The notes under the pieces: generated by a model
What the model was told of the DNA's origin: nothing
Database searches by the model: none
The model's input: only the letters and a program-made list of their open reading frames with translations
Shown: in pieces, positions 29,203 through 53,059 of the stretch
Layout of the letters: each line of letters starts with the position of its first letter
Position numbering within the stretch: position 1 is the first letter of the stretch
Translations under genes and position numbers: made by a program
Source: Klenkia soli
Lineage (GTDB): Bacteria; Actinomycetota; Actinomycetes; Mycobacteriales; Geodermatophilaceae
DNA length: 64,000 nt
NCBI RefSeq assembly: GCF_900103975.1
Contig: NZ_FNIR01000010.1
Coordinates: 1 to 64,000 of the forward strand
Reading direction: 5' to 3'

Positions 29203-30387
29203 CTACGGCCAGTCGGGCAGCTCGTAGCGGTCGGCCGGGGGAGTGGTGAACCGGCCGAGGACCCCGCCCAGGCTGGTGGCGAGCGGGCTGGCCGCCACCT
29301 TCAGCACCGAGGTGAAGGCCCTGCGGCCCAGCTCGGTGCGCGGGTTGGCGATCCGCGGGGTGCCCGGCGGCAGCGACTGGCCCTTCTCCACGAACGGCCG
29401 CATGCGGCGCTCGTACTCGGCGAAGGCCGCGCGGTGGTCGGTGTCAGCCGCCAGGGAGGCGGCCAGGGTGTAGGCGCCGCTCAGTGCCAGCGTGGTGCCG
29501 ATGCCGCTGACCGGCGTGGCGCACCAGGCGGCGTCGCCGACAAGCGCGATGCGGCCCTGCGACCAGCGGGGCAGGGTCACCTGGGAGAGGTCCTCGACGT
29601 ACATCGGGGCGTCGTCCATGGCGTCGAGCACCCGGTCGGTCTGCCAGCCGGCGCCCGCGAAGGTGCGGCGGAAGAGGGTGGTCTGGGCCTCGCGCGGGAG
29701 GTCGTCGATGCCCCGGGTGTCGGTCATCATGTTGATCGCGGCACGGATGGTGCCGACGTCGTCCGGGCGCAGGTTGACGCCCCGGCCGCGGCCGGCGACG
29801 TACCAGCGCCACCAGTCGGTGTCGTCGTCCTGCCGCGGGATGGTCAGGTAGGCGATGACCATGCCCAGGTAGCGGCGCTGCGCCTGCGCGAAGACCAGGT
29901 CGCGGCTGCGGGAGTTGACGCCCTCGGCCAGCACGACGAGGTCGAAGCGCTGCTCCTTCCCCGAGGCGAAGGTGACGTCGACGCCGCCCGCGTCCTGGTC
30001 GAGGCCGGTGATCTGGTCGCCGAAGAGGTAGGCGACGTCGTCCGCGCCGTGGTCGTGCAGCAGCTGGCCGAGCCGGCCGCGGAGGATCTCCATCTCGGCG
30101 GTGGCGCCCGAGGTGTCGTCGGTGCTGGCCGGGAAGCGGGCGACCTCGCGGCCGCCGGCGCCGAGGAAGACGGTGCCCTGCTCGCCGGTGCCGGCGGCGA
30201 GGGCCGCCTCCTCCAGGCCCATGCGGCGGATCACCTCGCGGGCGGCCCCGCGGACGTCGATGTTCTGGCCGTCGTCCCGCAGGGCGTCGAAGCGCTCGAC
30301 GACGGTGACGTCGAACCCGGCGCGGGCCAACCAGGAGGCGGTGGTGGGTCCGGCGATGCTGGCGCCGGAGACGAGCACGGTGGGCAT
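29203..30387 (-). CDS. FAD-dependent monooxygenase (PHBH/TetX-like)
   Basis: A 394-residue flavoprotein hydroxylase. It has the Rossmann start TVLVSGASIAGPTTASWLAR (GxGxxG-like GASIAG), the DG motif around LVVLAEGVNSRSRDLVF, and the second FAD motif GRIALVGDAAWCATPVSGIG. It resembles TetX/aromatic hydroxylases, so it may oxidise or inactivate an aromatic compound or antibiotic. ATG 30387 follows AAAGGAGC. A divergent MarR gene begins 40 bases away with a palindrome between them, so the pair probably forms a ligand-induced switch. Confidence 0.9.
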   Translation of the reverse strand: MPTVLVSGASIAGPTTASWLARAGFDVTVVERFDALRDDGQNIDVRGAAREVIRRMGLEEAALAAGTGEQGTVFLGAGGREVARFPASTDDTSGATAEMEILRGRLGQLLHDHGADDVAYLFGDQITGLDQDAGGVDVTFASGKEQRFDLVVLAEGVNSRSRDLVFAQAQRRYLGMVIAYLTIPRQDDDTDWWRWYVAGRGRGVNLRPDDVGTIRAAINMMTDTRGIDDLPREAQTTLFRRTFAGAGWQTDRVLDAMDDAPMYVEDLSQVTLPRWSQGRIALVGDAAWCATPVSGIGTTLALSGAYTLAASLAADTDHRAAFAEYERRMRPFVEKGQSLPPGTPRIANPRTELGRRAFTSVLKVAASPLATSLGGVLGRFTTPPADRYELPDWP

Positions 30388-30400
30388 GGTGCTCCTTTGG

Positions 30401-30426
30401 TTAGACGATCTAGGTAGATTGTCGAA
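30401..30426. promoter_or_regulatory. Palindromic MarR operator
   Basis: The core is GACGATCTA-GG-TAGATTGTC (30404-30423), with one mismatch between arms and two further paired bases outside. It fills the gap between the divergent monooxygenase and MarR starts. TAGATT at 30415-30420 also fits a -10 element about eight bases before the MarR ATG, which suggests a leaderless marR transcript that the repressor would cover. Confidence 0.65.
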
Positions 30427-30427
30427 C

Positions 30428-30874
30428 ATGGACGACGACGGCGCCATGCCGGGGCTCACCGAGGTCACCATCGCCCTGCGCGACCTGATGCAGGCCTCGC
30501 GGGACCTGACCGGTCGGCTGGCCCGCGACCTGGGCATGCCGGTGACCGACGTGACCGCCGTCGGGATGCTCGACGCCATCGGCCCGCTGACGGTGAGCGC
30601 CCTGGCCGCCGGGCTGGACATCCGCACGCCGTCGGCCACCGCCCTGGTCGACCGGTTGGTCGCCGCCGGCCGCGCCGAGCGCCGTCCGCACCCGGAGGAC
30701 GGGCGCAGCACGGTGGTGCACCTGACCGGCCCGGGCCGGGAGGAGAGCTGGACGGCGTGGGAGCCGGTGATCCGGGCGATGGACGCCGCCGCCCAGGGGT
30801 TGCCGGCCGACCAGCAAGCGGTGGTCGGCCGCTACCTGCGCGACGTCGCCGCCGCGATGCACCGCCACCCCTGA
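30428..30874 (+). CDS. MarR-family transcriptional regulator
   Basis: A 148-residue winged-helix repressor. The recognition region runs through GPLTVSALAAGLDIRTPSATALVDRLVAAG, seen here in part, and the beta wing is RRPHPEDGRSTVVHLTGPG. Amino and carboxy helices would form the dimer. ATG 30428 leaves no room for a ribosome site because the operator abuts it, consistent with leaderless translation. It likely controls itself and the divergent flavin monooxygenase. Its 3' end is seven bases from the end of the convergent selenoprotein candidate. Confidence 0.9.
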   Translation: MDDDGAMPGLTEVTIALRDLMQASRDLTGRLARDLGMPVTDVTAVGMLDAIGPLTVSALAAGLDIRTPSATALVDRLVAAGRAERRPHPEDGRSTVVHLTGPGREESWTAWEPVIRAMDAAAQGLPADQQAVVGRYLRDVAAAMHRHP

Positions 30875-30881
30875 TCGCCGG

Positions 30882-31976
30882 TCAGAGCGTGCGCGGGTAG
30901 TACTCGCCCTCGCCCAGCTGGGCCAGGTCGGAGGCGAAGTCGCTCTCGAAGGGCCAGTCCGCCTCCTGCCCGGCCAGCGGTCCCTGCGCGAAGCGGCCCA
31001 GCGGACCGCCGTCCCGCTCCTGGGCGACCAGGGACCAGGCCTGCCGGCGGTAGGTCCAGTTGTCCGGTTGCAGCAGGTGCGAGGCGTTGAAGTGCGGGAT
31101 CGCCAGGTCGCGGCGGCCGGCCTGCCACAGGTGCTGGGCCAGCTCGAAGTGCGCGGCGGCCCACGAGGCCTCCGGCGGGGCCGGGCGGGAGCGGGCGACC
31201 ACCTCGTCGGGGGAGAGCGCGTACCGGCTGGCCGCGCCGTGCTCGACCCAGTCGCGCAGCGCGGCGGCGTACCCGGCGCGGTCCTGCCCGGAGTTCAGCA
31301 GTGCGCGCTGGTCGACCTCCGGGGTCTCCTTCGTCTTCCCCATGGCGGGCAGCACGCCGAAGCCCTCGGGCAGGGTGCGCGGGAAGCCGGGCCAGCCGGG
31401 CTCAGGCGGCCGGACGACGGTGCCCTCCTCGTCCACCCAGACGACGCTCGGCACGTTGACCACGCCGAACAGGGCGTCCATCCGGTGGCCGGGGTCGACC
31501 AGCGACGGGTGGTCGGGGGCCGTGGCCTCGATGTGCGGGCGCGCGGCGTCGGCGTCGTCGAGGCAGACGGTGACCACCTCGAGGCCGCGGGGGTGCAGCT
31601 CGGTGCGCAGGGCCTGCCACCCGGGCAGGTCGAAGGCGCAGCCCTACCAGGGCGCCCAGGAGACGATCGCGACCTTCTGCCCGCGCAGCTCGGCGAGCCG
31701 GAACGGGGTGCCGTCGAGCCGGGCCAGCTCGAGGTCGGGGGCCGTCGCGGTGGTCAGCGCCCGGTCGCCCAGGGTGTCGGGGCCGATGGCCCACAGGCCC
31801 GCCGCGGGCTCGTGCACGACGGCCATCCGCAGCCGCTCGGCCGTCGTCCGCGCGTCGAACGGCCCGCCGCCGAGTGGCACGCAGGCGTCGCCGCGGCAGG
31901 CGCCCTGCGGCTTGATCGCCCACCCGGTGCCGGCGGCGAAGGCCTCGGGGGTGAGGTCGAGGGTGTCCGCGATCAC
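30882..31976 (-). CDS. Thioredoxin-like selenoprotein candidate with in-frame UAG (Sec111)
   Basis: Read through one TAG (31646-31644), this is a 364-residue redoxin. GTG 31976 starts a front domain with C27 and C32 (GACRGDACVPL). The thioredoxin fold begins LARLDGTPFRLAELRGQKVAIVS in two pieces around residue 85 and reaches WAPW-[TAG]-GCAFDLPGW, so the stop sits exactly at residue 111 of the redox motif, next to Cys113. After it the frame stays open for 253 codons, with family-like VVNVPSVVWVDEEG and a TPR-like helical tail (HFELAQHLWQAGRRDLAIPH). A hairpin resembling a bacterial SECIS follows the TAG. UAG-coded selenocysteine has been reported in Geodermatophilus and Blastococcus (Mukai et al. 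2016, Facile Recoding of Selenocysteine in Nature). Alternative: a nonsense-mutated pseudogene. Confidence 0.8.
31605..31639 (-). promoter_or_regulatory. Putative SECIS element after the UAG codon
   Basis: In the mRNA, bases 15-31 after UAG form CCUGCC-CGGGU-GGCAGG: a perfect 6-bp stem with a five-base loop containing GGGU. A lower GCGC/GCGC stem (bases 5-8 with 36-39) closes an internal loop. Bacterial SECIS elements are hairpins just after the Sec codon with an apical G-G(-U) bound by SelB; spacing and loop agree. It overlaps coding sequence, as expected in bacteria. Confidence 0.7.
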
Positions 31977-32042: not shown

Positions 32043-33245
32043 TCAGGCGGCGGTGGCCTCCTCGGCCGGTGCGAGCGCGGCCTCGGCGACCTCGGCCGGG
32101 GTGGGCGGCAGGCCGATGCTGGGGGCGTGGCCGCGGAAGTTCTCCAGCCACCAGCGCCAGTCCGCCGGCACCAGGTCGAACGGTGCCGGGTGGCCGAGCT
32201 CGCGGGCGGCCCAGACCGGCCAGTGCGGGTTCGAGAGCGCCGGGCGGCCGATCATCGCGATGTCGATGAGCTCCTCGCGGATGACGGCGTCGGCGGTCTG
32301 CGGGACGCCCAGGTTCCAGCTGGTGGCCACCGGGATGCCCACCTCGCGGCGCACCCGGGTGGCGCGCGGGACGAACCCTGCGGGCTCGTCGAAGAAGTGC
32401 GGGTCGCGCATGTCGTCGGTGTTGCCGCCCATCGACAGGTCGGCCAGGTCCAGCCCGTGCTCCTTCATCCACCCGATGGCCTCGATCGAGTCCTCGAACT
32501 GGGTGCCGTCGGGGTGGAAGTCGTCCGAGCCCAGCCGCATGGTCAGCGGCAGGTGCTCGGGCCAGACCTCGCGGACGGCGTCCAGCGCCTCGAGCAGGAA
32601 GCGGGCCCGGTTGCGGTTGGAGCCGCCGTACTCGTCGGTGCGCTGGTTGGCCAGCGGCGAGAAGAAGCTGGCGGCCAGGTAGCCGTGGGCGAAGTGCATC
32701 TCCAGCCACTCGTAGCCGGCGTCGGCGGCGCGGCGGGCGGCGTCGGCGTAGCTGCGGTGCAGGGCCTTGATCTCGTCGACGGTCAGGGCGTGCACCGGGT
32801 AGGAGTGGTCGCCGCCGGCCGGGATGTTCGACGGGCCGACGGTGAGCCAGCCGTCGGGGTGCTCCGGGGGCAGGGCCTTCCAGCCACCCTGGGCGTTGGT
32901 CTCCTTGTGCGGCGGGACCTCGCTGCCCTTGCGACCGGTGTGGCCCAGCTGGATCCCGGCGACGCCGCCGAACATCTTGATGATGTTCGTGACGCGGCGG
33001 TGGCCCTCGACCTGGTCGTCGGACCAGATGCCGGCGCAGGAGGTCGTCGTCCGGCCGTCCGGGGTGATGGCGATCTGCTCGGGGAAGACCAGGCCGAAGC
33101 CGCCGGCGGCGCGCGCCCCGAGGTACATGACGTGGTAGTCGTCCATCTGGCCGTCGACCGAGCCGTACATGGTCATCGGCGACATCGCGATGCGGTTCCG
33201 CAGCGAGACGCCCTTGAGCGTGAAGGGGGACAAGAGGTCGGGCAC
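32043..33245 (-). CDS. Old-yellow-enzyme family NADH:flavin oxidoreductase
   Basis: A 400-residue FMN-dependent ene-reductase-type TIM barrel. It begins LLSPFTLKGVSLRNRIAMSP, has QLGHTGRKGS (barrel strand with the substrate-binding His region), EWLEMHFAHGYLAASFFSPL, NQRTDEYGGSNRNRARFLLE and IDIAMIGRPALSNPHWPVWA, all standard OYE/YqjM-like blocks. It would reduce activated C=C bonds with NAD(P)H. GTG 33245 follows GGAGG-like sequence. It lies upstream of the selenoprotein candidate on the same strand with a 66-base gap; a functional link is not shown. Confidence 0.92.
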   Translation of the reverse strand: MPDLLSPFTLKGVSLRNRIAMSPMTMYGSVDGQMDDYHVMYLGARAAGGFGLVFPEQIAITPDGRTTTSCAGIWSDDQVEGHRRVTNIIKMFGGVAGIQLGHTGRKGSEVPPHKETNAQGGWKALPPEHPDGWLTVGPSNIPAGGDHSYPVHALTVDEIKALHRSYADAARRAADAGYEWLEMHFAHGYLAASFFSPLANQRTDEYGGSNRNRARFLLEALDAVREVWPEHLPLTMRLGSDDFHPDGTQFEDSIEAIGWMKEHGLDLADLSMGGNTDDMRDPHFFDEPAGFVPRATRVRREVGIPVATSWNLGVPQTADAVIREELIDIAMIGRPALSNPHWPVWAARELGHPAPFDLVPADWRWWLENFRGHAPSIGLPPTPAEVAEAALAPAEEATAA

Positions 33246-41210: not shown

Positions 41211-44200
41211 ATGAAGATCATCGACAACGTCAACGAGTTGCTCGGCGACGATTTCAAAGAACAAATCGCGCCGGGATCCAAGGTGCGCATTGCCGCCTCG
41301 ACCTTCTCAATCTTCGCGTTCGAGGCTCTCCGGAAGGAGCTGGAGCAGGTCGGCGAGCTGGAGTTCATCTTCACCTCACCCTCCTTCGTGACCAGCAAGG
41401 CGACGGACAAGCTCCGCAAGGAACGCCGTGAGTTCTTCATCCCACAGGTCGGTAGTGGCGAGTCCAGCCTTTACGGCTCTGATTTCGAGATCCGCCTGCG
41501 CAACAAGTTGACCCAACGCGCGATCGCACGGGAGTGCGCGGACTGGGTGCGCCGCAAGGTCACGTTCCGGTCGAACTCCACGGGCAATCCGATGCAGCAG
41601 TTCGCCGTTGTCGATGACGAGGCGGCCTACATGCCGCTTCAGGGGTTCACGACCGCAGACCTTGGCTACGAGCCTGGGAACGCCGTATCGAACATGGTCC
41701 ACCGCATCGACGATGCGCCGATGACGGCGCAGTACGTCCGCTTGTTCGATCAGATCTGGCACAACTCCGACCAGCTTGATGATGTCACGGACGCGGTCTA
41801 CGACCACATCGCAAGCGTCTACGCAGAGAACTCGCCCGCGCGAGTCTACTTCATGATCCTCTACAACCTGTTCGCGGAGTTCCTCGAGGACATCAGCGAA
41901 GACGTGCTTCCCAACGATCGCACGGGTTATCAGGACACCCAGGTCTGGCAGTCGCTCTACAACTTTCAGCGGGACGCTGCCACCGGCATCATCAACAAGC
42001 TCGAGACCTACAACGGCTGCATCCTCGCGGACAGCGTGGGCCTCGGAAAGACCTTCACCGCACTCGCGGTGATCAAGTACTACGAGCTGCGGAACAAGTC
42101 GGTCCTGGTGCTCGCGCCGAAGAAGCTCGCGGAGAACTGGACGAACTACAACGCGAACTTGACGACGAACATTTTCGCCAAGGACCGCTTCAACTACGAC
42201 GTCCTCGCTCACACCGACTTGTCCCGCACCAAGGGTGAGTCAGGGGGACTTCGGCTTGACCGAGTGAACTGGGGCAATTACGACCTCGTCGTCATCGACG
42301 AGTCCCATAACTTCCGCAACGCCGACTATGCGGAGGAGAAGGAATCTCGCTATCAGCGGCTGATGCGCCAGGTGATCCGCGAGGGCGTGAAGTCCAAGGT
42401 GCTCATGCTGTCGGCGACGCCGGTCAACAACCGGTTCAACGACCTCAAGAACCAGCTCCAGCTCGCCTATGAGGGTGAGTCGGAGAACCTGGCGAAGCAT
42501 CTCAGCCTGTCCACGACCGTGGAGAGGGTCTTCAGTGATGCCCAACGGGCGTTCAACGAGTGGTCGAAGTTACCGCCGGAGTCTCGCACCCCCGCCGCGA
42601 TCTCGAAGATGCTCGACTTCGATTTCTTCGAGTTGCTCGACTCGGTCACCATCGCACGGTCACGCAAGCACATCCAGGCGTTCTACGACACCACCGAGAT
42701 CGGCGCCTTTCCCGAGCGTATGCCGCCAGCCTCTATCCGTGAGCCGCTTAGTGATCTTCAGGATGTCCCGACGTTCAAGGACATTTTTGAGCAACTGCAG
42801 GAGCTAACGCTCGCGGTGTACACGCCGTTGAAGTACGTGCTCGATAGCCGTGTGCGAAAGTACGAAGACCTGTACAACGTCGAGGGTGGAACGGCACGGT
42901 CAAACCTCGGGCAGCGGGGCCGTGAGCAAGGGCTGAAGAAGTTGATGACCGTCAACTTGCTGAAGCGGTTGGAGAGCTCGGTCGAGGCCTTTCGGCTCAC
43001 CCTCGCGAAGATCGAGGCGGCGGTCGACCACACGATGGGCCGGCTCGACTCTCACGAGAGCGCGATCGCCGACATGAACATCGACTTCGCTGGCCTAGAC
43101 GTCGATGACGAGGACACAGTCGGCGCCAACGCTCTCTTGTTCGGCCAGAACATCAAGATCGATCTCGATGACGTCGACGTTGAGTCGTGGCGACGCGACC
43201 TGAGGAACGACCGTGAGACGCTCCGCGAATTGCTCGACGAGATGCGGAGGGTGACCCCCGAGCACGACCGCAAGCTCGGGGCCCTCACGGACCTGATCGC
43301 CGGGAAGGTCGCTCAGCCGATCAACGAGGGCAACCGCAAGGTGCTCATCTTCTCGGCCTTCGCCGACACGGCCGAGTACCTCTACCGGGAACTCGCTCCG
43401 CGCCTGAGTAAGGCTGGCCTCGAGTGCGCCCTAGTGACCGGCGGCGGTCACGCCGCGAAGACCACGCTCGGTTCCGGCTATGACTTCCAACAGGTGCTCA
43501 CGCTCTTCTCGCCGAAGTCAAAGCAGCGACACCTGACCATGCCCAAGGCGACCGGCGAGCTCGACGTGCTGATCGCCACCGACGTGATCAGCGAGGGCCA
43601 GAACCTTCAGGATTGCGACTACCTCGTCAACTACGACATCCACTGGAATCCGGTCCGGATCATCCAGCGCTTCGGTCGCGTCGACCGCATCGGTTCCACA
43701 AACACGTACATCCGGCTGGTGAACTTCTGGCCCGACATCTCTCTAGACGAGTACATCAACCTGAAGGAACGGGTCGAGAACCGCATGGTGATCGCTGACC
43801 TAGCGGGAACCGCCGACGACAACGTTCTGACCTTGGAGGACGGCGACGCAGCCTTCCGCAAGGAACAGCTCCGCAAGCTGCAGAACGAGGTCATCGAGCT
43901 CGAAGACGTCCGCACCGGCGTCTCGATCACCGACCTGGGCCTCAACGACTTCCGCATGGATCTCCTGGGCTACATCAAGGAGTACGGCGACCTCGCCGGC
44001 GCGCCCAAGGGGCTCCATGCCGTCGTGCCGGCCCAAGCGGACAATGGACTCAAGCCAGGAGCGCTCTTCGTCCTTCGTGATGTGAACGCCGACAAGAACA
44101 TCAACCGCGGCAACCGACTCCACCCGCACTACCTCGTCTATCTAGACGGCGACGGCAACGTCATTGCCGACCACACGGAGGTCAAGCACCTCCTCGACCT

Positions 44201-44474
44201 CATCCGTGCCGGATGCCGCCCGTACGACGAGCCGGTCGGTGCGGTCACGCGCGTCTTCAACTCGGCCACCAACGAGGGCGCTGAGATGGGGCACTACTCG
44301 GAGCTGCTCACCGCGGCGATCAGCTCGATGGTCGACGTGACGGCCGAACGCGACCTGGACAGCCTCTTCTCCGACGGAGCTACGACCGCGCTCACCCAGA
44401 CCATCGGCGGACTGGACGATTTCGAGCTCATCGCCTTCATCGCCATCGTCGACCCAGCGCAGGGCACCGCATGA
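41211..44474 (+). CDS. SNF2-type helicase with PLD-like amino end (defence operon gene 1)
   Basis: A 1,087-residue superfamily 2 translocase. Residues 1-180 resemble the phospholipase-D-like front domain of related defence helicases (IAASTFSIFAFEALRKELEQ), but an HKD motif is not evident. Walker A is DSVGLGKTFTAL near residue 273, the DExx box is DLVVIDESHNFRNA near 360, motif III MLSATPVNNRF follows, and motif VI is IIQRFGRVDRIGS near 818. Its ATGA overlap with the DUF4391 gene and close spacing to mod and res place it in one operon. It probably moves along DNA for a restriction-type complex. GC content is visibly lower than outside the island. Confidence 0.9.
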   Translation: MKIIDNVNELLGDDFKEQIAPGSKVRIAASTFSIFAFEALRKELEQVGELEFIFTSPSFVTSKATDKLRKERREFFIPQVGSGESSLYGSDFEIRLRNKLTQRAIARECADWVRRKVTFRSNSTGNPMQQFAVVDDEAAYMPLQGFTTADLGYEPGNAVSNMVHRIDDAPMTAQYVRLFDQIWHNSDQLDDVTDAVYDHIASVYAENSPARVYFMILYNLFAEFLEDISEDVLPNDRTGYQDTQVWQSLYNFQRDAATGIINKLETYNGCILADSVGLGKTFTALAVIKYYELRNKSVLVLAPKKLAENWTNYNANLTTNIFAKDRFNYDVLAHTDLSRTKGESGGLRLDRVNWGNYDLVVIDESHNFRNADYAEEKESRYQRLMRQVIREGVKSKVLMLSATPVNNRFNDLKNQLQLAYEGESENLAKHLSLSTTVERVFSDAQRAFNEWSKLPPESRTPAAISKMLDFDFFELLDSVTIARSRKHIQAFYDTTEIGAFPERMPPASIREPLSDLQDVPTFKDIFEQLQELTLAVYTPLKYVLDSRVRKYEDLYNVEGGTARSNLGQRGREQGLKKLMTVNLLKRLESSVEAFRLTLAKIEAAVDHTMGRLDSHESAIADMNIDFAGLDVDDEDTVGANALLFGQNIKIDLDDVDVESWRRDLRNDRETLRELLDEMRRVTPEHDRKLGALTDLIAGKVAQPINEGNRKVLIFSAFADTAEYLYRELAPRLSKAGLECALVTGGGHAAKTTLGSGYDFQQVLTLFSPKSKQRHLTMPKATGELDVLIATDVISEGQNLQDCDYLVNYDIHWNPVRIIQRFGRVDRIGSTNTYIRLVNFWPDISLDEYINLKERVENRMVIADLAGTADDNVLTLEDGDAAFRKEQLRKLQNEVIELEDVRTGVSITDLGLNDFRMDLLGYIKEYGDLAGAPKGLHAVVPAQADNGLKPGALFVLRDVNADKNINRGNRLHPHYLVYLDGDGNVIADHTEVKHLLDLIRAGCRPYDEPVGAVTRVFNSATNEGAEMGHYSELLTAAISSMVDVTAERDLDSLFSDGATTALTQTIGGLDDFELIAFIAIVDPAQGTA

Positions 44475-45172
44475 GGGATCCGCTCTATCGCTGGCCGTCC
44501 GCAGCCCGGTTCGGCCGCACGGTTCCCAAGACCAAGTTCTACGAGCACGCGAGCATCGGATCAACGATCAAGGACCGCTTCGTCTCCGACGTACGACGGA
44601 TCACATGGGCCTACAAGCTCGCCGAGTCGACGATCAACCTTCCGGGCAGCGTTGAGGTCCCAGAGATCCAGGTCTTCGAGATCGGAGCAAAGGAAGAGGA
44701 CGTCGCGGACGGCGTTCTCGCTGCGATCGACAAGGCGGTCCGAACTCCGATCATTTTCGAGATCAGCCGGGGGGAGGGGAGTAACGGAACCATCCGGATG
44801 GTCGCTGCTCACAAGCAGCTCGGCACCGGTGCCCCGAAATTGGGCCCCTACTTGAGCACCTCCTGGCAACCCGCACCCGGCGACCGAACCCCGCTCCCGG
44901 CGGCCATCGACTTGACGACCATGTACACGGCGCTCCTGCAACCGTTGACGCCGGTCGCACCGCGGGCTGGCGAGAGTGTGTCGAAAATCGTCAGCAGACT
45001 TACGACCGTTCAGTCGCTCGAGCGCGAGATCACCGCCTTGGAGCGGAAGCTCCGGAACGAACCGCAGCTCAATCGGAAGGTCGAGCTGCGTCGGATCTTG
45101 AAGACCAAGCAGGCAATGCTCGTGGACCTCACGAGCCCGACCCCTAGCCCGGCCACGGGCAACACGAACTGA
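44471..45172 (+). CDS. DUF4391 protein (defence operon gene 2)
   Basis: A 233-residue cytoplasmic protein with the DUF4391 layout: LYRWPSAARFGRTVPKTKFY at the front, VRRITWAYKLAESTINLPGS, IQVFEIGAKEEDVADGVLAA, and a carboxy coiled coil (LEREITALERKLRNEPQLNR). The family is found next to defence helicases and methyltransferases, and its biochemical role is unknown. It overlaps the helicase gene by four bases, and the mod gene starts eight bases after its stop. The coiled coil suggests it bridges subunits. Confidence 0.85.
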   Translation: MRDPLYRWPSAARFGRTVPKTKFYEHASIGSTIKDRFVSDVRRITWAYKLAESTINLPGSVEVPEIQVFEIGAKEEDVADGVLAAIDKAVRTPIIFEISRGEGSNGTIRMVAAHKQLGTGAPKLGPYLSTSWQPAPGDRTPLPAAIDLTTMYTALLQPLTPVAPRAGESVSKIVSRLTTVQSLEREITALERKLRNEPQLNRKVELRRILKTKQAMLVDLTSPTPSPATGNTN

Positions 45173-45180
45173 GGACCACC

Positions 45181-47049
45181 GTGGAGAAGCTTCGAATGAC
45201 GTCACCCGATCTCGCGGCGGCCAATATCGACAAAATCGCTACGATGTTCCCGGGCGTCACTACTGAGGCCATCGACGCAGAAGGGAACCAGGCTCGCGTA
45301 GTCGACTTCGACTTGCTCCGCCAAGAGCTCTCCGGTCGCGTGGTGGAAGGGCCCCAGGAGCGCTATCAGCTTGACTGGCCGGGCAAGCGGGTCGCGGCGT
45401 TCTCCGCGAACGCGCCCATCGCGAAAACGCTTCGACCGATGCGTGAAGAGTCGGTTGATTTCGATAGCAGCAAGAATCTGTTCATCGAGGGGGACAATCT
45501 TGACGCCCTCAAGCTTCTTCAGGAGTCCTACCTCGGAAAGATCCGGGTCATCTACATCGACCCTCCCTACAACACCGGCAGCGACCGGTTCGTCTATCCG
45601 GATAGCTACGCAACTGATACTGGGACTTACCTCGCTCAATCTGGCCAAGTGAACGACGAGGGAGTCCGGTTGAAGACGAGCGTGGAGTCAGACGGCAGGT
45701 ATCACTCGGACTGGCTCAGCATGATGTACCCGCGCCTCAAGTTGGCCCGGAATCTCTTGACCGACGATGGACTGCTCTTCGTCAGCATCGACTCCCATGA
45801 GGTGCATAATCTCCGAAAGATCTGCGACGAGATTTTCGGCGCAGGAAGTCACAAGAACACCATCGCGGTCCGTCGGGGTATCAAGAACGTCCAGGCGCAA
45901 TTCGAGGACCTCAGTGCGCTCTCTCAGGGGCACGAGTACATATTGCTCTACGCCAGAAGTTCCGAGGTTCGGCTGCCCAAACTTTCCTTGGTCCATGAGG
46001 ACCGAAAGCCGGGCAAGTGGGACACATATTGGCGGGGGACTGACCGCCCGACGATGCGATATGAGTTGCTGGGCGTTACACCTGAATCGGGCCAGTGGCG
46101 TTGGGAGCGTGGTCGCTCACTCGAAGCTGTGGCGAACTACGAGCGTTTCCTGGCGCAGGTCGAAGGCGGGCTCAGCCTCGATGATTACTATCTCGATCAC
46201 CTAACGGCGACCAACGTAAAGTTGAATTTTGTCCGCAGAAGCGATGATGGCACGGTTCAGTATTACGTCCCGCCCAGCGAAGGAAAGTTGCTGAGCGATA
46301 ACTGGATGGATATTACTCTCAGTGGTAACGAGACGGAGGAGTTTGACACTGAGAAGAGCACTGCGCTCCTCCAGCGAATCGTTCGTTGGGCGTGCGGTCC
46401 AGACGAGATCGTTCTCGACTTCTTCGCCGGCTCGGCGACGACGGGGCACGCTGTTATGAACGTCAATGCCGCCGACGGCGGTAGTCGGCGCTATGTCCTT
46501 GTGCAGTTGGGCGAGAAGCCGAACGAGAAATCGGCAGCAGCTAAGGCCGGGGCTGGCACTATAGCATCGGTGTCCAGAAACCGACTCCGTAAAGCAGGCT
46601 CAGCGATCCGAGAGGGAGCGGGCTCGGGCGGGGACCTCTGCGACGTAGGATTCCGTGCCCTAAAGGTCGACACGACCAACATGACTGATGTGCTCCGCAC
46701 ACCGGATGAAACCGATCAGACGTCACTGTCCGGGCTTGAGGACAGCGTCAAGCCTGGCCGAACCGGGGAAGACCTGCTGTTTCAGGTACTGCTGGACTGG
46801 GGGCTCGACGTCGGTGTCTCCATCGCTGTCGAGCAGGTGGAGGGCCACGAAGTCTTCGTGGTCGAGGACGGCGCACTCGTCGCTTGTTTCGAAAGCTCAG
46901 TGACCACCGAACTGGTGCGCATCCTGGCGACGCGCGAGCCGCTGCGTGCCGTGTTCCGTGACTCAGGGTTTGCCTCAGACGATGCACGGATCAATGCGCA
47001 GCAGATCTTCAAGGAGCTTTCGCCTTCCACCGACGTGAAGGCCATCTGA
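45181..47049 (+). CDS. mod: Type III restriction-modification DNA methyltransferase (Mod)
   Basis: A 622-residue beta-class amino methyltransferase. Motif IV DPPYNTGS is at residues 127-134, preceded by the Mod-typical EGDNLDALKLLQESYLGKIR. Motif I, LDFFAGSATTGHAVM, comes after it near residue 412, so the domain order is that of the beta class. The middle (residues 220-390) is the target-recognition region. It should make N6-methyladenine and direct the Res subunit. GTG 45181 follows GAGGACCACC; ATG 45196 is an alternative. Res starts four bases after its stop. Confidence 0.93.
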   Translation: MEKLRMTSPDLAAANIDKIATMFPGVTTEAIDAEGNQARVVDFDLLRQELSGRVVEGPQERYQLDWPGKRVAAFSANAPIAKTLRPMREESVDFDSSKNLFIEGDNLDALKLLQESYLGKIRVIYIDPPYNTGSDRFVYPDSYATDTGTYLAQSGQVNDEGVRLKTSVESDGRYHSDWLSMMYPRLKLARNLLTDDGLLFVSIDSHEVHNLRKICDEIFGAGSHKNTIAVRRGIKNVQAQFEDLSALSQGHEYILLYARSSEVRLPKLSLVHEDRKPGKWDTYWRGTDRPTMRYELLGVTPESGQWRWERGRSLEAVANYERFLAQVEGGLSLDDYYLDHLTATNVKLNFVRRSDDGTVQYYVPPSEGKLLSDNWMDITLSGNETEEFDTEKSTALLQRIVRWACGPDEIVLDFFAGSATTGHAVMNVNAADGGSRRYVLVQLGEKPNEKSAAAKAGAGTIASVSRNRLRKAGSAIREGAGSGGDLCDVGFRALKVDTTNMTDVLRTPDETDQTSLSGLEDSVKPGRTGEDLLFQVLLDWGLDVGVSIAVEQVEGHEVFVVEDGALVACFESSVTTELVRILATREPLRAVFRDSGFASDDARINAQQIFKELSPSTDVKAI

Positions 47050-47053
47050 GCGA

Positions 47054-50000
47054 ATGAAACTTCAGTTCAAGATCCAGCCGTATCAGACCGATGCAGTCGA
47101 CTCGGTTGTTCAGGTGTTTGCGGGCCAGCCTCGACGTACAGGCATCGCGTACAGGATTGATCCTGGCACGGTGATGCGGAGTGCCGCCCCAGCCCTGTTC
47201 GAGACAGGCACGGCTGCCGACTCAGGTCTGCGCAATGCCGCGATTGAGCTCTCCGCTGCTCAGTTGCTCGCTAACATTCACCAAGTGCAAAAAGCGCGGA
47301 ACTTGCCGCCGGTGCCGAAGATCATCGACAGCAAGGCCGCGCCTGGTGCCCCCAACCTCGACATCGAGATGGAGACCGGCACCGGCAAGACCTACGTCTA
47401 CATCAAGACGATTATGGAGCTGAACAAGCGCTACGGCTGGTCCAAGTTCATCGTCGTGGTTCCGTCCGTAGCGATCCGCGAGGGCGTCAAGAAGTCGTTC
47501 GACGTAACGGCTGAGCATTTCCTGCAGGCCTACGGCACGAAGCCGCGCTCGTTCATCTACGACTCCTCTCAGTTGCATGATCTTGAGCGTTTCAGCTCCG
47601 ATGCGGGCGTGCAGGTAATGATCATCAACATCCAGGCCTTCAACGCAACGGGGAAGGACAACCGCCGCATCTACGATGTGCTGGACGACTTCCAGTCCCG
47701 CAAGCCGATCGACGTGATCAGCGCCAACCGGCCGATCGTCATCATCGACGAGCCACAAAAGATCGGCGCTCCGAAGTCGCTTGAGGCTCTATCCCGCTTC
47801 AACGCGCTGATGGTGCTGCGCTACTCGGCCACTCATAAGGTGGAGCACACCAAAGTCCACCGACTCGACGCCCTGGATGCCTACAACCAGAGGCTCGTCA
47901 AGAAAATCGCTGTCCGCGGCATCACGGTCAGGGGCCTTGCCGGCTCCACTGCTTACCTCTACCTCGACGCGGTCGAGGTCAAGAAGGGCCGGCCACCCAC
48001 GGCCCGCGTGGAACTGGAAGTTCAGACCAAGGGCGGCCCGATCAAGCGGCAGCTCAAGCGGGTCACGAAGGGCTCCCGACTTCATGACCTCGCGAACGGT
48101 ATCGAGGTCTACAAGGAGCTTGTGGTCACCGACGTCAGCGCGATCGACGACACCATCACGCTCAGCAACGGGGACGTCGTCGTCGCGGGCCAGCTCGCGG
48201 ATCGTGACGTAACAGAGGAAACCAAGCGGCGAATCCAGATCCGCGAGGTCATCCGCGCGCACATCGACAAGGAGCGCGAGCTCTTCAGCCAGGGCGTCAA
48301 GGTCCTCTCACTCTTCTTCATCGATGAGGTCGCCAAGTACCGCGACTACTCCCGCGAGGACACCCTGGGCGACTACGCCCGAGTGTTCGAGGATGAATTC
48401 GCCGCCGTTGTAGAGGAGGTCCTCGGGGAGCTGGAGCTCGATGACGCAACAGCGACTTACAAGAAGTACCTCAGCCGTGACGAGGCCCGGGATGTGCACC
48501 AGGGCTACTTCTCGATTGACAAGAAGAGTAAGCGGCTCGTCGACGGCGACGTGCACAGGACCGGCGATGAGAAGGGTCAGTCTAAGGACGTTGCCGCCTA
48601 CGACTTGATCCTCAAGGACAAGGAACGCCTGCTGTCCTTGAAGGAGCCTGTGCGGTTCCTGTTCTCGCACTCGGCCCTTCGCGAAGGATGGGACAACCCC
48701 AACGTGTTCGTCATGGGCATGCTCAAAAAGAGCGACAACACCATCTCGCGGCGGCAGGAGATTGGGCGTGGGCTGCGGCTTGCGGTGGACCAGAACGGCG
48801 ACCGCATGGACAACCCGGTCACCGTGCATGCCATCAACCAGCTGACCGTCGTGACCGACGAGTCCTACACCGACTTCGTGGGCGGGCTGCAGAAGGAGAT
48901 TGCAGAGTCGCTGGCGGCGCGCCCACGGAAGGCCAGCGTCAAGTTCTTCACTGGCAAGACGATCCACACCGAGTCCGGCGAGAGCGCCGTCGACGAGAAG
49001 CTCGCGACCGCTCTGTACAACTACCTTGTGCGCAACGACTACGTCGACGACGACGGGCTCGTGACGCAGAAGTACAAGGAGGACAAGCACGCCAGGTCGC
49101 TGGCCGAGCCGTTGTCCGAAGTGCTCAAGCCGGTCATCGATTTCGTGTGGCCATTGATCGACGCCCTGTACATCGACATCCCCGCGCCGACCAACGACCG
49201 CAAGCCTAAGAAGATCCCGCTCAACGAGGCGAACTTCAAGAAGAAGGAGTTCCAAGAGCTCTGGAGTCGGATCAACCACAAGGCTGTCTATCAGGTCGAG
49301 TTCGACTCAGCCGAGTTGGTGGGCAAGTGCGTCGCATCACTCGACACCCACTTGAACGTCGCAGCCATGCAGTACGTCGTCCAAGCCGGCAAGCAGCGGG
49401 AGTCGCTCGACGCTGATGACCTGGCCAGTGGCACCGGATTCGACGTCACCACGACTTCCACCCAGACCGCGTCGGTGTCTGCTGGGTCCCAGGTGAAGTA
49501 CGACCTGCTGGGGGAGGTGACCGAGAAGACCCAGCTCACTCGGCGCACTGCCGCTGCGATCCTTGGCCGAATCAATCCGAACACGTTCGGCAAGTTCCGT
49601 CTCAATCCGGAGCAATTCATCACCGAAGCCGCGCGACTCATCAACGAGCAGAAGGCCACGGTCATTGTGGAGCATCTGGCCTACGAAGCGCTAGAGGACC
49701 GCTTCGACATGGCCATCTTCACGGAGAATCAGAGTGCCCAGGACTTCTCTAAGGCCGGGGAGAAGCTCAAGAAGCACGTATACGACTACGTCGTGACGGA
49801 CTCGACGGTTGAGCGCGACTTCGTCACGGACTTGGACACCAGCTCCGAGGTAGAGGTGTACGTCAAGTTGCCGCGCGGCTTCTTCATCCCGACTCCGGTC
49901 GGTGACTACAACCCCGACTGGGCAATCGCGTTCACAGAGGGTTCGGTCAAGCACGTGTACTTCGTTGCCGAGACGAAAGGCTCCCTGTCCACCCTTCAGC

Positions 50001-50134
50001 TGAAGGGTGTCGAGAACGCCAAGATCGCGTGCGCCCGGAAATTTTTCGACGACGTCAACAAGAAGTTCGAGGGCCGGGTGAAGTACGAAGTCGCCGACGG
50101 CTACTCCAAGCTGATGGAACTCGTAACGGGATAG
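47054..50134 (+). CDS. res: Type III restriction endonuclease subunit (Res)
   Basis: A 1,026-residue helicase-nuclease. Walker A is IEMETGTGKTYVYIKTIMEL near residues 103-122, the DExx box is IVIIDEPQKIG near 230, and later helicase motifs include FLFSHSALREGWDNPNVFV and ISRRQEIGRGLRLAVDQNGD. The carboxy-terminal PD-(D/E)xK nuclease is seen as YNPDWAIAF and YFVAETKGS near residues 950-976. With Mod it forms a type III system that cuts after ATP-driven movement from unmethylated sites. All catalytic motifs are intact. It ends in TAG, and the GmrSD-like gene starts five bases later. Confidence 0.95.
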   Translation: MKLQFKIQPYQTDAVDSVVQVFAGQPRRTGIAYRIDPGTVMRSAAPALFETGTAADSGLRNAAIELSAAQLLANIHQVQKARNLPPVPKIIDSKAAPGAPNLDIEMETGTGKTYVYIKTIMELNKRYGWSKFIVVVPSVAIREGVKKSFDVTAEHFLQAYGTKPRSFIYDSSQLHDLERFSSDAGVQVMIINIQAFNATGKDNRRIYDVLDDFQSRKPIDVISANRPIVIIDEPQKIGAPKSLEALSRFNALMVLRYSATHKVEHTKVHRLDALDAYNQRLVKKIAVRGITVRGLAGSTAYLYLDAVEVKKGRPPTARVELEVQTKGGPIKRQLKRVTKGSRLHDLANGIEVYKELVVTDVSAIDDTITLSNGDVVVAGQLADRDVTEETKRRIQIREVIRAHIDKERELFSQGVKVLSLFFIDEVAKYRDYSREDTLGDYARVFEDEFAAVVEEVLGELELDDATATYKKYLSRDEARDVHQGYFSIDKKSKRLVDGDVHRTGDEKGQSKDVAAYDLILKDKERLLSLKEPVRFLFSHSALREGWDNPNVFVMGMLKKSDNTISRRQEIGRGLRLAVDQNGDRMDNPVTVHAINQLTVVTDESYTDFVGGLQKEIAESLAARPRKASVKFFTGKTIHTESGESAVDEKLATALYNYLVRNDYVDDDGLVTQKYKEDKHARSLAEPLSEVLKPVIDFVWPLIDALYIDIPAPTNDRKPKKIPLNEANFKKKEFQELWSRINHKAVYQVEFDSAELVGKCVASLDTHLNVAAMQYVVQAGKQRESLDADDLASGTGFDVTTTSTQTASVSAGSQVKYDLLGEVTEKTQLTRRTAAAILGRINPNTFGKFRLNPEQFITEAARLINEQKATVIVEHLAYEALEDRFDMAIFTENQSAQDFSKAGEKLKKHVYDYVVTDSTVERDFVTDLDTSSEVEVYVKLPRGFFIPTPVGDYNPDWAIAFTEGSVKHVYFVAETKGSLSTLQLKGVENAKIACARKFFDDVNKKFEGRVKYEVADGYSKLMELVTG

Positions 50135-50139
50135 GGGCG

Positions 50140-52005
50140 ATGACTGTGACCGATATCGACCGGACGATCGACGGGGTTGCCAAGACCATCGCCGAAGTCC
50201 TGGAGAAAAAGAAGTACTCAATCGACTACTACCAACGCGAGTACAAGTGGGAGTCGAAGCAGATCGCTGAGCTCGTCGCCGATCTGACTGCCAAGTTCCT
50301 CGACCTCTATGAGGCTGACCACGCCCGCAAGGACGTCGCCAAGTACCCCGGCTACTACCTCGGTTCCATCATTATCTCACAGAAGGGCAGCCAGCCTTTC
50401 GTCGTTGATGGCCAGCAGCGGCTGACCAGCCTCACGCTGTTGCTCACGTACCTGCGGCGTCTCCAGCAGGGACGGGAGGATGTCGTCAACATCGACGAGC
50501 TCATCTACTCCGAAAGATTCGGCGAGAAATCGTTCAACCTCGACGTTCCCGATCGCAACGACTGCATGGAGGCCTTGTTCGAGTTCGGTGAATACGAGCC
50601 GCCGTCGGACTCAGCGGAGTCGGTGCACACGCTCGTCGCTAGGTACGCGGAACTTGACGGGCTCTTCCCCGACGAGCTGAAGGACGCCGCGCTCCCGTTC
50701 TTCATCGATTGGCTCAAGGACCGGGTGCAGCTCGTCCAGATCACCGCGTATAGCGACGACGACGCGTACGCCATCTTTGAAACGATGAACGATCGCGGCC
50801 TCAAGCTCACTCCGGCAGACATGCTCAAGGGGTACCTGCTCGCCAACATGGAAGACGGGAAGCCTCGCACCAAGGCCAACGAGCTGTGGCGCAAGCGGCT
50901 GCGCAGCCTCGACGAGCAGGCGGAGGACGCCAGCTCCGACTTCCTCAAGACGTGGCTGCGAAGCCAGTACTCGACCAAGATCCGTGAGCGCAAGAAGGGA
51001 GCGCGTCCCGAGGACTGGGACCGGATCGGCACCGAGTTCCACCGCTGGGTCCGCGGCGCCAACGATAGCGTTGGCCTGAAGGTGCGCGACGACTTCTACA
51101 ACTTCGTGTTCCGTGACCTCGAGTTCTACAGCCACCACTATGCGCGCATCCTCGACGCATCGACCGGATCTTTCCAGCCGGACAGCCCTCTGCGCTTCAT
51201 CCGGTTCAACGCCGACCTCGGCTTCACACTCCAGAATCAGCTGCTCCTGGCGCCGCTCCGAGTCGATGACAACACAGCCGCCATCGACAGGAAGTTGGAG
51301 CTGGTCGGCCGGTTCACCGACATCCTCCTCGCCCGCCGTATCTGGAACTTCCGGGCGACGGCCTACTCAACGATGCAATACGCCATGTTCACCGTCATGC
51401 GCGACATCCGTGGCCTTAGCGAGCCTGACCTGGCCAAGGTGCTCCGTGACTACCTGCTCAAGGTCGACGAGTCCTTCGACTACGACGGCTTGTACGTCCA
51501 CCAGCAAAACCGGAGCCAACTCCACAAGATCCTTGCTCGGATCACCGACCACATCACCGTGAAGTCCGGCCAAGCCTCGAACTACATCGAGCTCACGAAC
51601 GGTGCGAAGGTGAAGTACGAGGTTGAGCACATCTGGGCCGACCATCCCGAGCGGCACGCCGACGACTTCAGCCACGAGGCGGATTTCGCTCGCCATCGAA
51701 ACCGGATCGGTGACCTGTTGCTGCTGCCCAAGCAGTTTAACGCGAGCTACAACGACGAGACCTACGCGCAGAAGCGTCCGCGGTACTTCAGTCAGAACTT
51801 GCTTGCCGCCAGCCTGGATCCCCAGGCTTACGAGAAGAACCCCGGCTTCGTGGCCTTCGTCAAGGACGCGGGTCTGCCGTTCCGCGCCCACGAGGAGTTC
51901 AAAGCGGCTGACATCGTCGAGCGTGGCCACCTGTACCGCGATATCGCCAAGCAACTCTGGAACCCCGACGACCTGACCGCTGTCACGGCAAACGAGTTGC
52001 CATGA
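50140..52005 (+). CDS. GmrSD-like DUF262/DUF1524 protein (defence operon gene 5)
   Basis: A 621-residue fusion like the GmrSD type IV restriction enzyme. The DUF262 half has YYQREYKWESKQIAELVADL near residue 29, FVVDGQQRLTSLTLLLTYLR near 88, and FETMNDRGLKLTPADMLKGY near 210, a ParB/Srx-like nucleotide-binding fold. The DUF1524 half has the HNH core YEVEHIWADHP near 494 and HRNRIGDLLLLPKQFNASYN near 517. GmrSD acts on modified (for example glucosylated hydroxymethyl) phage DNA. Linked to a type III system, it would cover phages that evade cutting by base modification. ATG 50140 is the first start after the Res stop. Confidence 0.92.
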   Translation: MTVTDIDRTIDGVAKTIAEVLEKKKYSIDYYQREYKWESKQIAELVADLTAKFLDLYEADHARKDVAKYPGYYLGSIIISQKGSQPFVVDGQQRLTSLTLLLTYLRRLQQGREDVVNIDELIYSERFGEKSFNLDVPDRNDCMEALFEFGEYEPPSDSAESVHTLVARYAELDGLFPDELKDAALPFFIDWLKDRVQLVQITAYSDDDAYAIFETMNDRGLKLTPADMLKGYLLANMEDGKPRTKANELWRKRLRSLDEQAEDASSDFLKTWLRSQYSTKIRERKKGARPEDWDRIGTEFHRWVRGANDSVGLKVRDDFYNFVFRDLEFYSHHYARILDASTGSFQPDSPLRFIRFNADLGFTLQNQLLLAPLRVDDNTAAIDRKLELVGRFTDILLARRIWNFRATAYSTMQYAMFTVMRDIRGLSEPDLAKVLRDYLLKVDESFDYDGLYVHQQNRSQLHKILARITDHITVKSGQASNYIELTNGAKVKYEVEHIWADHPERHADDFSHEADFARHRNRIGDLLLLPKQFNASYNDETYAQKRPRYFSQNLLAASLDPQAYEKNPGFVAFVKDAGLPFRAHEEFKAADIVERGHLYRDIAKQLWNPDDLTAVTANELP

Positions 52006-52195: not shown

Positions 52196-53059
52196 TCAGG
52201 CCGCGTGAGCAGCGTGGGTGAGTGTCTCGAACTCGATAGGTGTTAGTCGACCGAGGGCGTCCTGGCGCCTGCGGCGGTGATAGGTGGTCTCGATCCAGGT
52301 GACGATCGCCAGCCGCAGCTCGGCCCGGGTGGTCCAGCGCCGGCGGTTGAGGACGTTCTCCTGCAGCAACGCGAAAAAGGACTCCATCGCGGCGTTGTCC
52401 GCGCACGTGCCGACTCGTCCCATCGACCCCAGTAGCTGGGCGTCGCGGAGGGCCGCGACGTAGGCGTGGGAACGAAATTGCGACCCCCTATCGGAGTGCA
52501 CGATGCCCCCGGTCCCACCGCGGAGCGCGAGGGCGTTGGTCAGGGCGTCCACGGCCAGCTGAGAGGTCATCCGGGCGTCGATGGAGTAGCCGACGATCCG
52601 CTTGGTGCAGGCGTCCTTGATCGCGCAGAGGTAGAGCTTGCCCTCGGCGGTGGGGTGCTCGGTGATGTCGGTGAGCCACAGGTTGTTCGGGGCCTCAGCG
52701 GTGAACTCCCGGCGCACCAAGTCGTCGTGCACGGGCGGTCCGGGCCGGCGCCCAGTGCCACGCTTGCGGGAGTGGACCGACCAGATCCGCTGCTGGGTGC
52801 ACAGTCGGTTCACCCGGTTGCGGGAGGCCTTCACCCCGGCGGCGGCAAGCTCGTCGGTGATGAACCGGTAGCCGAACTCGGGGTCGTCGTGGTGGATGTC
52901 CAGGGCGGTGTTGATCAGGTGCGCGTCGTCCCAGTCCCGCTGGGTCACCGGGTTGGCCTGCCACTTGTAGAACGCCTGCTTGGAGAACCCGAGCACCCGG
53001 CAGGTCACCGCGACGGGGATGTTGTCAGCGGCAAGGTCTTGGACCAGCGGGTACATCAT
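52196..53059 (-). CDS. IS3-family transposase OrfB (DDE integrase domain)
   Basis: A 287-residue catalytic transposase. The HTH_21-like front reads KWQANPVTQRDWDDAHLINT. The DDE residues are in NNLWLTDITEHPTAEGKLYL (first Asp), GGIVHSDRGSQFRSHAY (second Asp) and AAMESFFALLQENVLNRRRW (Glu). The frame is intact, so the element may still be active. Its ATG 53059 overlaps the OrfA stop within CCAAAATGATG, where translational coupling or a -1 frameshift could produce the OrfAB fusion. Confidence 0.93.
   Translation of the reverse strand: MMYPLVQDLAADNIPVAVTCRVLGFSKQAFYKWQANPVTQRDWDDAHLINTALDIHHDDPEFGYRFITDELAAAGVKASRNRVNRLCTQQRIWSVHSRKRGTGRRPGPPVHDDLVRREFTAEAPNNLWLTDITEHPTAEGKLYLCAIKDACTKRIVGYSIDARMTSQLAVDALTNALALRGGTGGIVHSDRGSQFRSHAYVAALRDAQLLGSMGRVGTCADNAAMESFFALLQENVLNRRRWTTRAELRLAIVTWIETTYHRRRRQDALGRLTPIEFETLTHAAHAA

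Follow-up and report, generated by a model that had tools for sequence, protein, structure and literature searches.

The window, the whole 64-kb stretch of DNA that was analyzed, harbors a gene that runs on the minus strand from a GTG start to a TGA stop and is interrupted by a single in-frame TAG, which stands within the string SWAPW*GCAFDLP (Table 1). The initial annotation placed this codon at 31646-31644 with 253 open codons beyond it, and these coordinates are exact. Standard reading of the gene yields two fragments, as had been predicted. The proposal that the true product is one protein of 364 residues is borne out by homology: both halves align jointly to the NF041054 model (442 bits), with read-through residues 1-362 aligning as one protein to model positions 1-351 of 354. 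The joined protein matches AhpC-TSA (Pfam PF00578) over residues 78-188 with 49 bits, above the cut-off of 26. The part after the TAG scores 21.6 bits by itself, below that cut-off, and the part before it matched no Pfam family at E 0.001. GC content by codon position is 0.75/0.60/0.99 before the TAG and 0.78/0.52/0.98 after it, a coding pattern on both sides. At 76% GC stops are scarce in all frames, with just 0 to 5 per approximately 364 codons in the five other frames of the stretch 30882-31976, so an open frame proves little by itself; it is the homology read through the TAG that raises the gene above chance.

Table 1. Features of the WAxxUGC_long gene and its product
Feature	Position in window	Strand	Evidence
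WAxxUGC_long (ResA-like, thioredoxin-fold) selenoprotein gene, 364 residues, complete (predicted)	30882..31976	minus	NF041054.1 1.3e-132, 442.4 bits, cut-off 300; translation
TAG, codon 111, predicted to be read as selenocysteine	31644..31646	minus	TAG/TGA/TGC/TGT column in 46 homologous rows; CUA tRNA-Sec in genome
Redox motif Sec111-Gly112-Cys113 (predicted)	31638..31646	minus	U/C111, G112 and C113 invariant in alignment A1 (33 rows)
Second invariant cysteine pair, Cys27 and Cys32 (C-x4-C)	31881..31898	minus	invariant in A1 (33 rows) and alignment A2 (20 rows)
Thioredoxin / AhpC-TSA domain, residues 77-189	31410..31748	minus	PF00578 49 bits; best PDB folds ResA
C-terminal helical domain, residues 233-330	30987..31280	minus	AlphaFold2 model; weak TPR_2 match below cut-off
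Putative bacterial SECIS hairpin CCTGCC-CGGGT-GGCAGG	31613..31629	minus	six pairs; 15-31 nt past the codon; 5-nt loop carrying G within the first two positions

A flavin oxidoreductase gene (32043-33245, PF00724) lies upstream of the WAxxUGC_long gene, and genes for a MarR-type protein and a FAD-binding protein lie downstream. None of the three was found beside the other TAG-containing copies in the stretches compared, so no functional inference is drawn from them. The FAD-binding protein gene (29203-30711) ends in plain TAG, as does selD elsewhere in the genome, in line with the earlier claim that other genes here use TAG as their stop. The number given, at least three, is harder to fix: a rough selection of ORFs in the window gave 37, eight of them ending in TAG, and the eight include the upstream part of the gene itself and several doubtful ORFs. 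Elsewhere in the window, positions 41211-52005 are low in GC (0.61-0.63 per 4 kb versus about 0.75) and hold defense-type genes, encoding a SNF2-type helicase, a type III methyltransferase and restriction enzyme, and a GmrSD-type protein. An integrase-core ORF follows at 52196-53059.

Selenocysteine typically shows itself as a mixture of TAG, TGA and cysteine codons in a column at a redox site. In a local alignment of homologs, codon 111 is TAG in 4 rows, TGA in 27, TGC in 13 and TGT in 2, for a total of 46. These rows derive from 46 locus ids; L164, which is frameshifted at the motif, was omitted from the column and from the hairpin counts, L165 and L168 fall short of the column, and L189, L191 and L194 contribute two rows each. 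The TAG rows are those of the window and of genomes G041, G043 and G114, all from the window's family and spread over three genera. Cysteine codons (15/46 rows) occur in Frankia, a Verrucomicrobiaceae bacterium and others. The initial annotation had placed the TAG at the redox position of WAPW-X-GC, and relatives indeed carry TGA or a cysteine codon there. Matches to NF041054 above the cut-off were obtained in 4 of 112 genomes of the family, each with exactly one TAG, and in 13 of 396 genomes sampled across the phylum. The latter comprise the window's genome with its TAG, 11 genomes with one TGA inside the match, and G383, whose over-cut-off copy is frameshifted and has the TGA at the motif located in another piece. 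Three matches outside the family (G383, G092 and G357) contain TAG codons, none of them at codon 111: the weak match in G092 has TAG at 74 and Cys at 111, and the distant, weak match in G357 has its stops away from 111. The second WAxxUGC copy of G383 (L284, C1 422000-425000) is diverged and below the cut-off, with TGA at 111 and an extra TAG at residue 19; this copy may be decaying.

If the gene were a pseudogene, the TAG would be a true stop and the downstream frame would be decaying. Such a state would agree with the two fragments obtained under standard reading and with the rarity of the gene in the family (4/112 genomes). It is nevertheless very improbable. The same TAG codon is present in four genomes of three genera, in an aligned frame with no other stop, and the random stops and frameshifts expected of decay are absent from the three sister copies, each of which is an unbroken frame with a single TAG, at the corresponding codon. 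Pairwise comparison of the four TAG genes (6 pairs, Nei-Gojobori) gives dN/dS values of 0.22-0.49 for the part before the TAG and 0.17-0.47 for the part after it, with synonymous divergence reaching 0.66; constraint is similar on the two sides. Decay also fails to explain the presence of TGA or cysteine codons in the same column in other lineages.

The genome encodes the machinery needed for the selenocysteine reading. A search for a CUA selC together with selA, selB and selD recovered all four, grouped as selD, selC, selA and selB within 4.2 kb (L006 13873-18023), with selC between selD, on the minus strand, and selA-selB. SelA (406.7 bits), SelB (273.1 bits) and SelD (385 bits) are all above their NCBIfam cut-offs, SelB matching its model across residues 3-338 only. 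The genome has one strong tRNA-Sec gene (C6 184895-184986, 67.3 bits, cut-off 47), with anticodon CUA, and the second-best match, at 47.2 bits, is a tRNA-Ser. A genome with only a UCA tRNA-Sec, which would have spoken against the reading, is thus not what was found.

The anticodon differs among genera of the family. Of 57 family genomes, 48 gave a CUA tRNA-Sec, accompanied by a UCA one in G021; seven gave UCA only, and two, G037 (best match a tRNA-Ser) and G029 (weak match), gave no recognizable tRNA-Sec. All 27 tRNA-Sec loci read in a sample of 40 genomes from other families of the order carry UCA. Given this distribution, UCA is likely ancestral, with CUA having arisen within the family. The UCA-only genomes (G012, G015, G017, G022, G024, G031 and G035) belong to genera g5, g8 and g10, which bracket the anticodon switch inside the family. 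G021 has two tRNA-Sec genes, at L120:1169-1263 (C17) and L100 (C11), and may read both UAG and UGA as selenocysteine. As judged by eye, its CUA gene adjoins selA-, selB- and selD-like genes and its UCA gene (81.8 bits) lies on a 69-kb contig with transposase-like genes. A rough scan of that contig gave no TGA-split gene and two TAG candidates.

Formate dehydrogenase provides a second gene in which to follow the codon. The window's genome contains a UAG-split formate dehydrogenase gene, with the TAG at ENQARI*HSA. TIGR01553 was searched in 60 genomes (36 from the family and 24 from the outgroup, matches at E 1e-60). It matched in 28 of 36 family genomes, 27 of which have one in-frame TAG, and in 15 of 24 outgroup genomes, 13 with one TGA and two without a stop. 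For 10 of the 40 stop-bearing rows the codon itself was inspected, the remaining rows giving the type of stop inside the match. Eight genomes of the window's genus, including the window's own, have TAG in ENQARI*HSATV, and that string holds TGA in G074 and G078. The formate dehydrogenase gene of G004 (L278, C12 810500-817500) is without its 5' part and Sec codon region and begins at TGA; it was counted as missed. G004 keeps a CUA tRNA-Sec and has a second partial formate dehydrogenase copy at a contig end (C4). Matches to TIGR01591 carry TGA in two UCA genomes (G015 and G031) as well as in G037, and in the window's genome this model finds only a stop-free formate dehydrogenase. In the family listing for UGSC proteins (NF041046), every stop-holding entry has TAG; the nine genomes of the window's genus, its own genome included, yielded no UGSC protein. 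These results show the Sec codon tracking the anticodon of the tRNA: CUA genomes have TAG, and the UCA outgroups have TGA.

Hairpin geometry like that of SECIS elements serves as a criterion for bacterial selenoproteins. A putative hairpin of this kind follows the TAG, with 20 nt separating the codon from the 5-nt loop, and appears in the RNAfold structure of the window row. All six pairs form in 4 of 4 TAG rows and 26 of 27 TGA rows (30/31 Sec rows), and in none of the 15 Cys rows (Fisher p 3e-11). Under synonymous recoding the full stem is expected in approximately 11.7 of the 31 Sec rows (Poisson-binomial p 2e-15); the rows are related to one another, so both p values overstate the case. 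Changes on both sides of the stem are seen in L169 (GGTCCC/GGGACC) and L155 (TCTGCC/GGCAGA). The conserved peptide DLPxWQ (Leu, Pro, Trp, Gln) dictates part of the stem, and the protein sequence of 13 of the 15 Cys rows rules out the full stem under the null, so the Sec/Cys contrast and the hairpin are partly confounded. The free energy of the 48 nt past the codon is unremarkable relative to synonymous recodings (all groups have a mean z of about 0; p<0.05 in 0/46 rows), and the position-specific stem alone was therefore used as the SECIS test. In formate dehydrogenase, a similar stem of seven pairs with loop GGTCT at +19 to +23 was noted by eye; it is not the minimum-energy fold there.

Suppression by an ordinary tRNA, or low-level read-through, would produce a truncated protein along with some full-length protein containing Gln, Tyr or a similar residue. 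Partial termination at Sec codons is usual, which speaks for this reading. However, read-through leaves unexplained why the column is limited to TAG, TGA, TGC and TGT, as well as the hairpin stem and the CUA tRNA-Sec, and is highly improbable. A reading of UAG as pyrrolysine, suggested by the label 'tRNA-Pyl' that ARAGORN gives to the CUA tRNA gene, is more remote still, as that gene fits the Rfam tRNA-Sec model with 67.3 bits, PylS reaches at best 24.3 bits in the genome against a cut-off of 178.15, and all 46 rows have either a Sec stop or Cys at the position.

Taken together, the integrity of the gene, the codon column, the machinery, the hairpin stem and the matching formate dehydrogenase make the selenocysteine reading well supported by sequence. 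The gene is almost certainly an intact selenoprotein gene with UAG as its selenocysteine codon, and insertion at residue 111, as proposed in the initial annotation, is predicted from the codon column, the CUA tRNA-Sec and selA, selB and selD. We infer the actual insertion of selenocysteine, the competition with release factor 1 and the redox role of the product. Selenocysteine would be made on the CUA tRNA-Sec by SelA, with selenophosphate supplied by SelD, and SelB would bring the charged tRNA to those UAG codons that have a hairpin loop about 20 nt on. At such codons SelB would outcompete release factor 1, and plain UAG elsewhere would still stop translation.

The product would be a ResA-like oxidoreductase with a thioredoxin fold, in which U-G-C takes the place of C-x-x-C. 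An AlphaFold2 model of the 364-residue protein, built from 20 input rows (alignment A2, the window plus 19 rows from related loci), has a mean pLDDT of 83.6 and a pTM of 0.81. Among solved structures, ResA and a DsbE-like protein come closest in fold, the best PDB match being 3c73 (TM 0.75 by target length). Residue 111 adjoins the start of helix 112-130 of the thioredoxin fold in the model, and the start of that helix is the usual place of the nucleophilic cysteine. The protein is probably a selenol-thiol oxidoreductase with Sec111 as the nucleophile and Cys113 as the likely resolving residue, and a relay may possibly run through Cys27/Cys32. Two other identities were considered and rejected. 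The peroxiredoxin active-site motif is P-x3-T/S-x2-C, and the string IVSWAPWU, by eye, is without Pro at -7 and without Thr/Ser at -3, which sets the protein apart from peroxiredoxin/AhpC although PF00578 matches. ResA proper was discarded on a score of 42.5 bits against an NCBIfam cut-off of 170 and on U-G-C instead of C-x-x-C.

The scattered occurrence of the gene bears on its descent. A tree was built from alignment A1, with 33 rows (4 TAG, 19 TGA and 10 Cys); L193, whose aligned range passes a stop near its end, was omitted, as were partial and distant rows. The TAG genes fall in a group of six, starred in the tree, together with two TGA genes (G260 and G303) from another family of the phylum, and this group nests among TGA genes. 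TAG needs two changes on the tree, one being possible. No shared neighbors were detected between 13 ORFs of the window and the 7.6-12 kb around the three other TAG genes and two TGA genes; a lone synteny match, 35% identity to an ORF labeled EAL by eye, was taken as chance. The gene would have descended from UGA-coded relatives, its codon turning to UAG and so matching the tRNA of the family. One plausible but tentative course is that the lineage had already switched to CUA when it acquired a UGA-coded gene, whose Sec codon subsequently became UAG rather than Cys. Such a crossing of the code barrier fits the scatter over 4 of 112 genomes and three genera, the lack of shared neighbors and the placement of the TAG copies within a distant family's TGA genes, and would imply strong selection for selenocysteine at position 111. 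Alternatively, the scatter may reflect loss from an ancestral copy that switched codon along with the tRNA.

UAG-coded selenoproteins of Geodermatophilaceae, with labeling evidence, were reportedly described by Mukai in 2016. The principle of UAG for selenocysteine in this family is already in print. A CUA tRNA-Sec is reported in three Geodermatophilaceae genomes (PMC5330540), and the use of UAG for selenocysteine in Blastococcus is stated in PMC5133445. In PMC5330540, formate dehydrogenases and UGSC proteins with UAG-coded selenocysteine are given after earlier work, and an AhpC of Blastococcus saxobsidens DD2 with a Sec-TAG and a hairpin is described. The CUA tRNA-Sec pattern of the window's family fits the Geodermatophilaceae of that report. 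Since some genera of the family still have UCA and one genome has both tRNAs, the switch of a codon for an amino acid is testable within this group. Standard annotation likely splits genes of this kind or labels them pseudogenes.

The present gene shares with the UAG-coded selenoproteins described in PMC5330540 the CUA tRNA-Sec, the in-frame UAG at the Sec site and the hairpin behind it. It differs from the set named there (formate dehydrogenase, UGSC and AhpC) in encoding a member of the WAxxUGC_long family. The AhpC of B. saxobsidens DD2 belongs to the same broad superfamily and may be a member of the WAxxUGC_long family itself; no published description of that family (NF041054) in UAG form was otherwise found in the literature searched. 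With NF041054 the protein shares a full-length match over the cut-off and the WAPWUGC motif, but the relatives read outside the window's family have TGA or Cys codons at the position where TAG is found here. With the ResA/TlpA thiol-disulfide oxidoreductases it shares the thioredoxin fold, and differs from them in its extra N-terminal segment with C-x4-C, its C-terminal helical domain and its U-G-C motif. The WAxxUGC_long protein enlarges the UAG-coded set by one more selenoprotein family.
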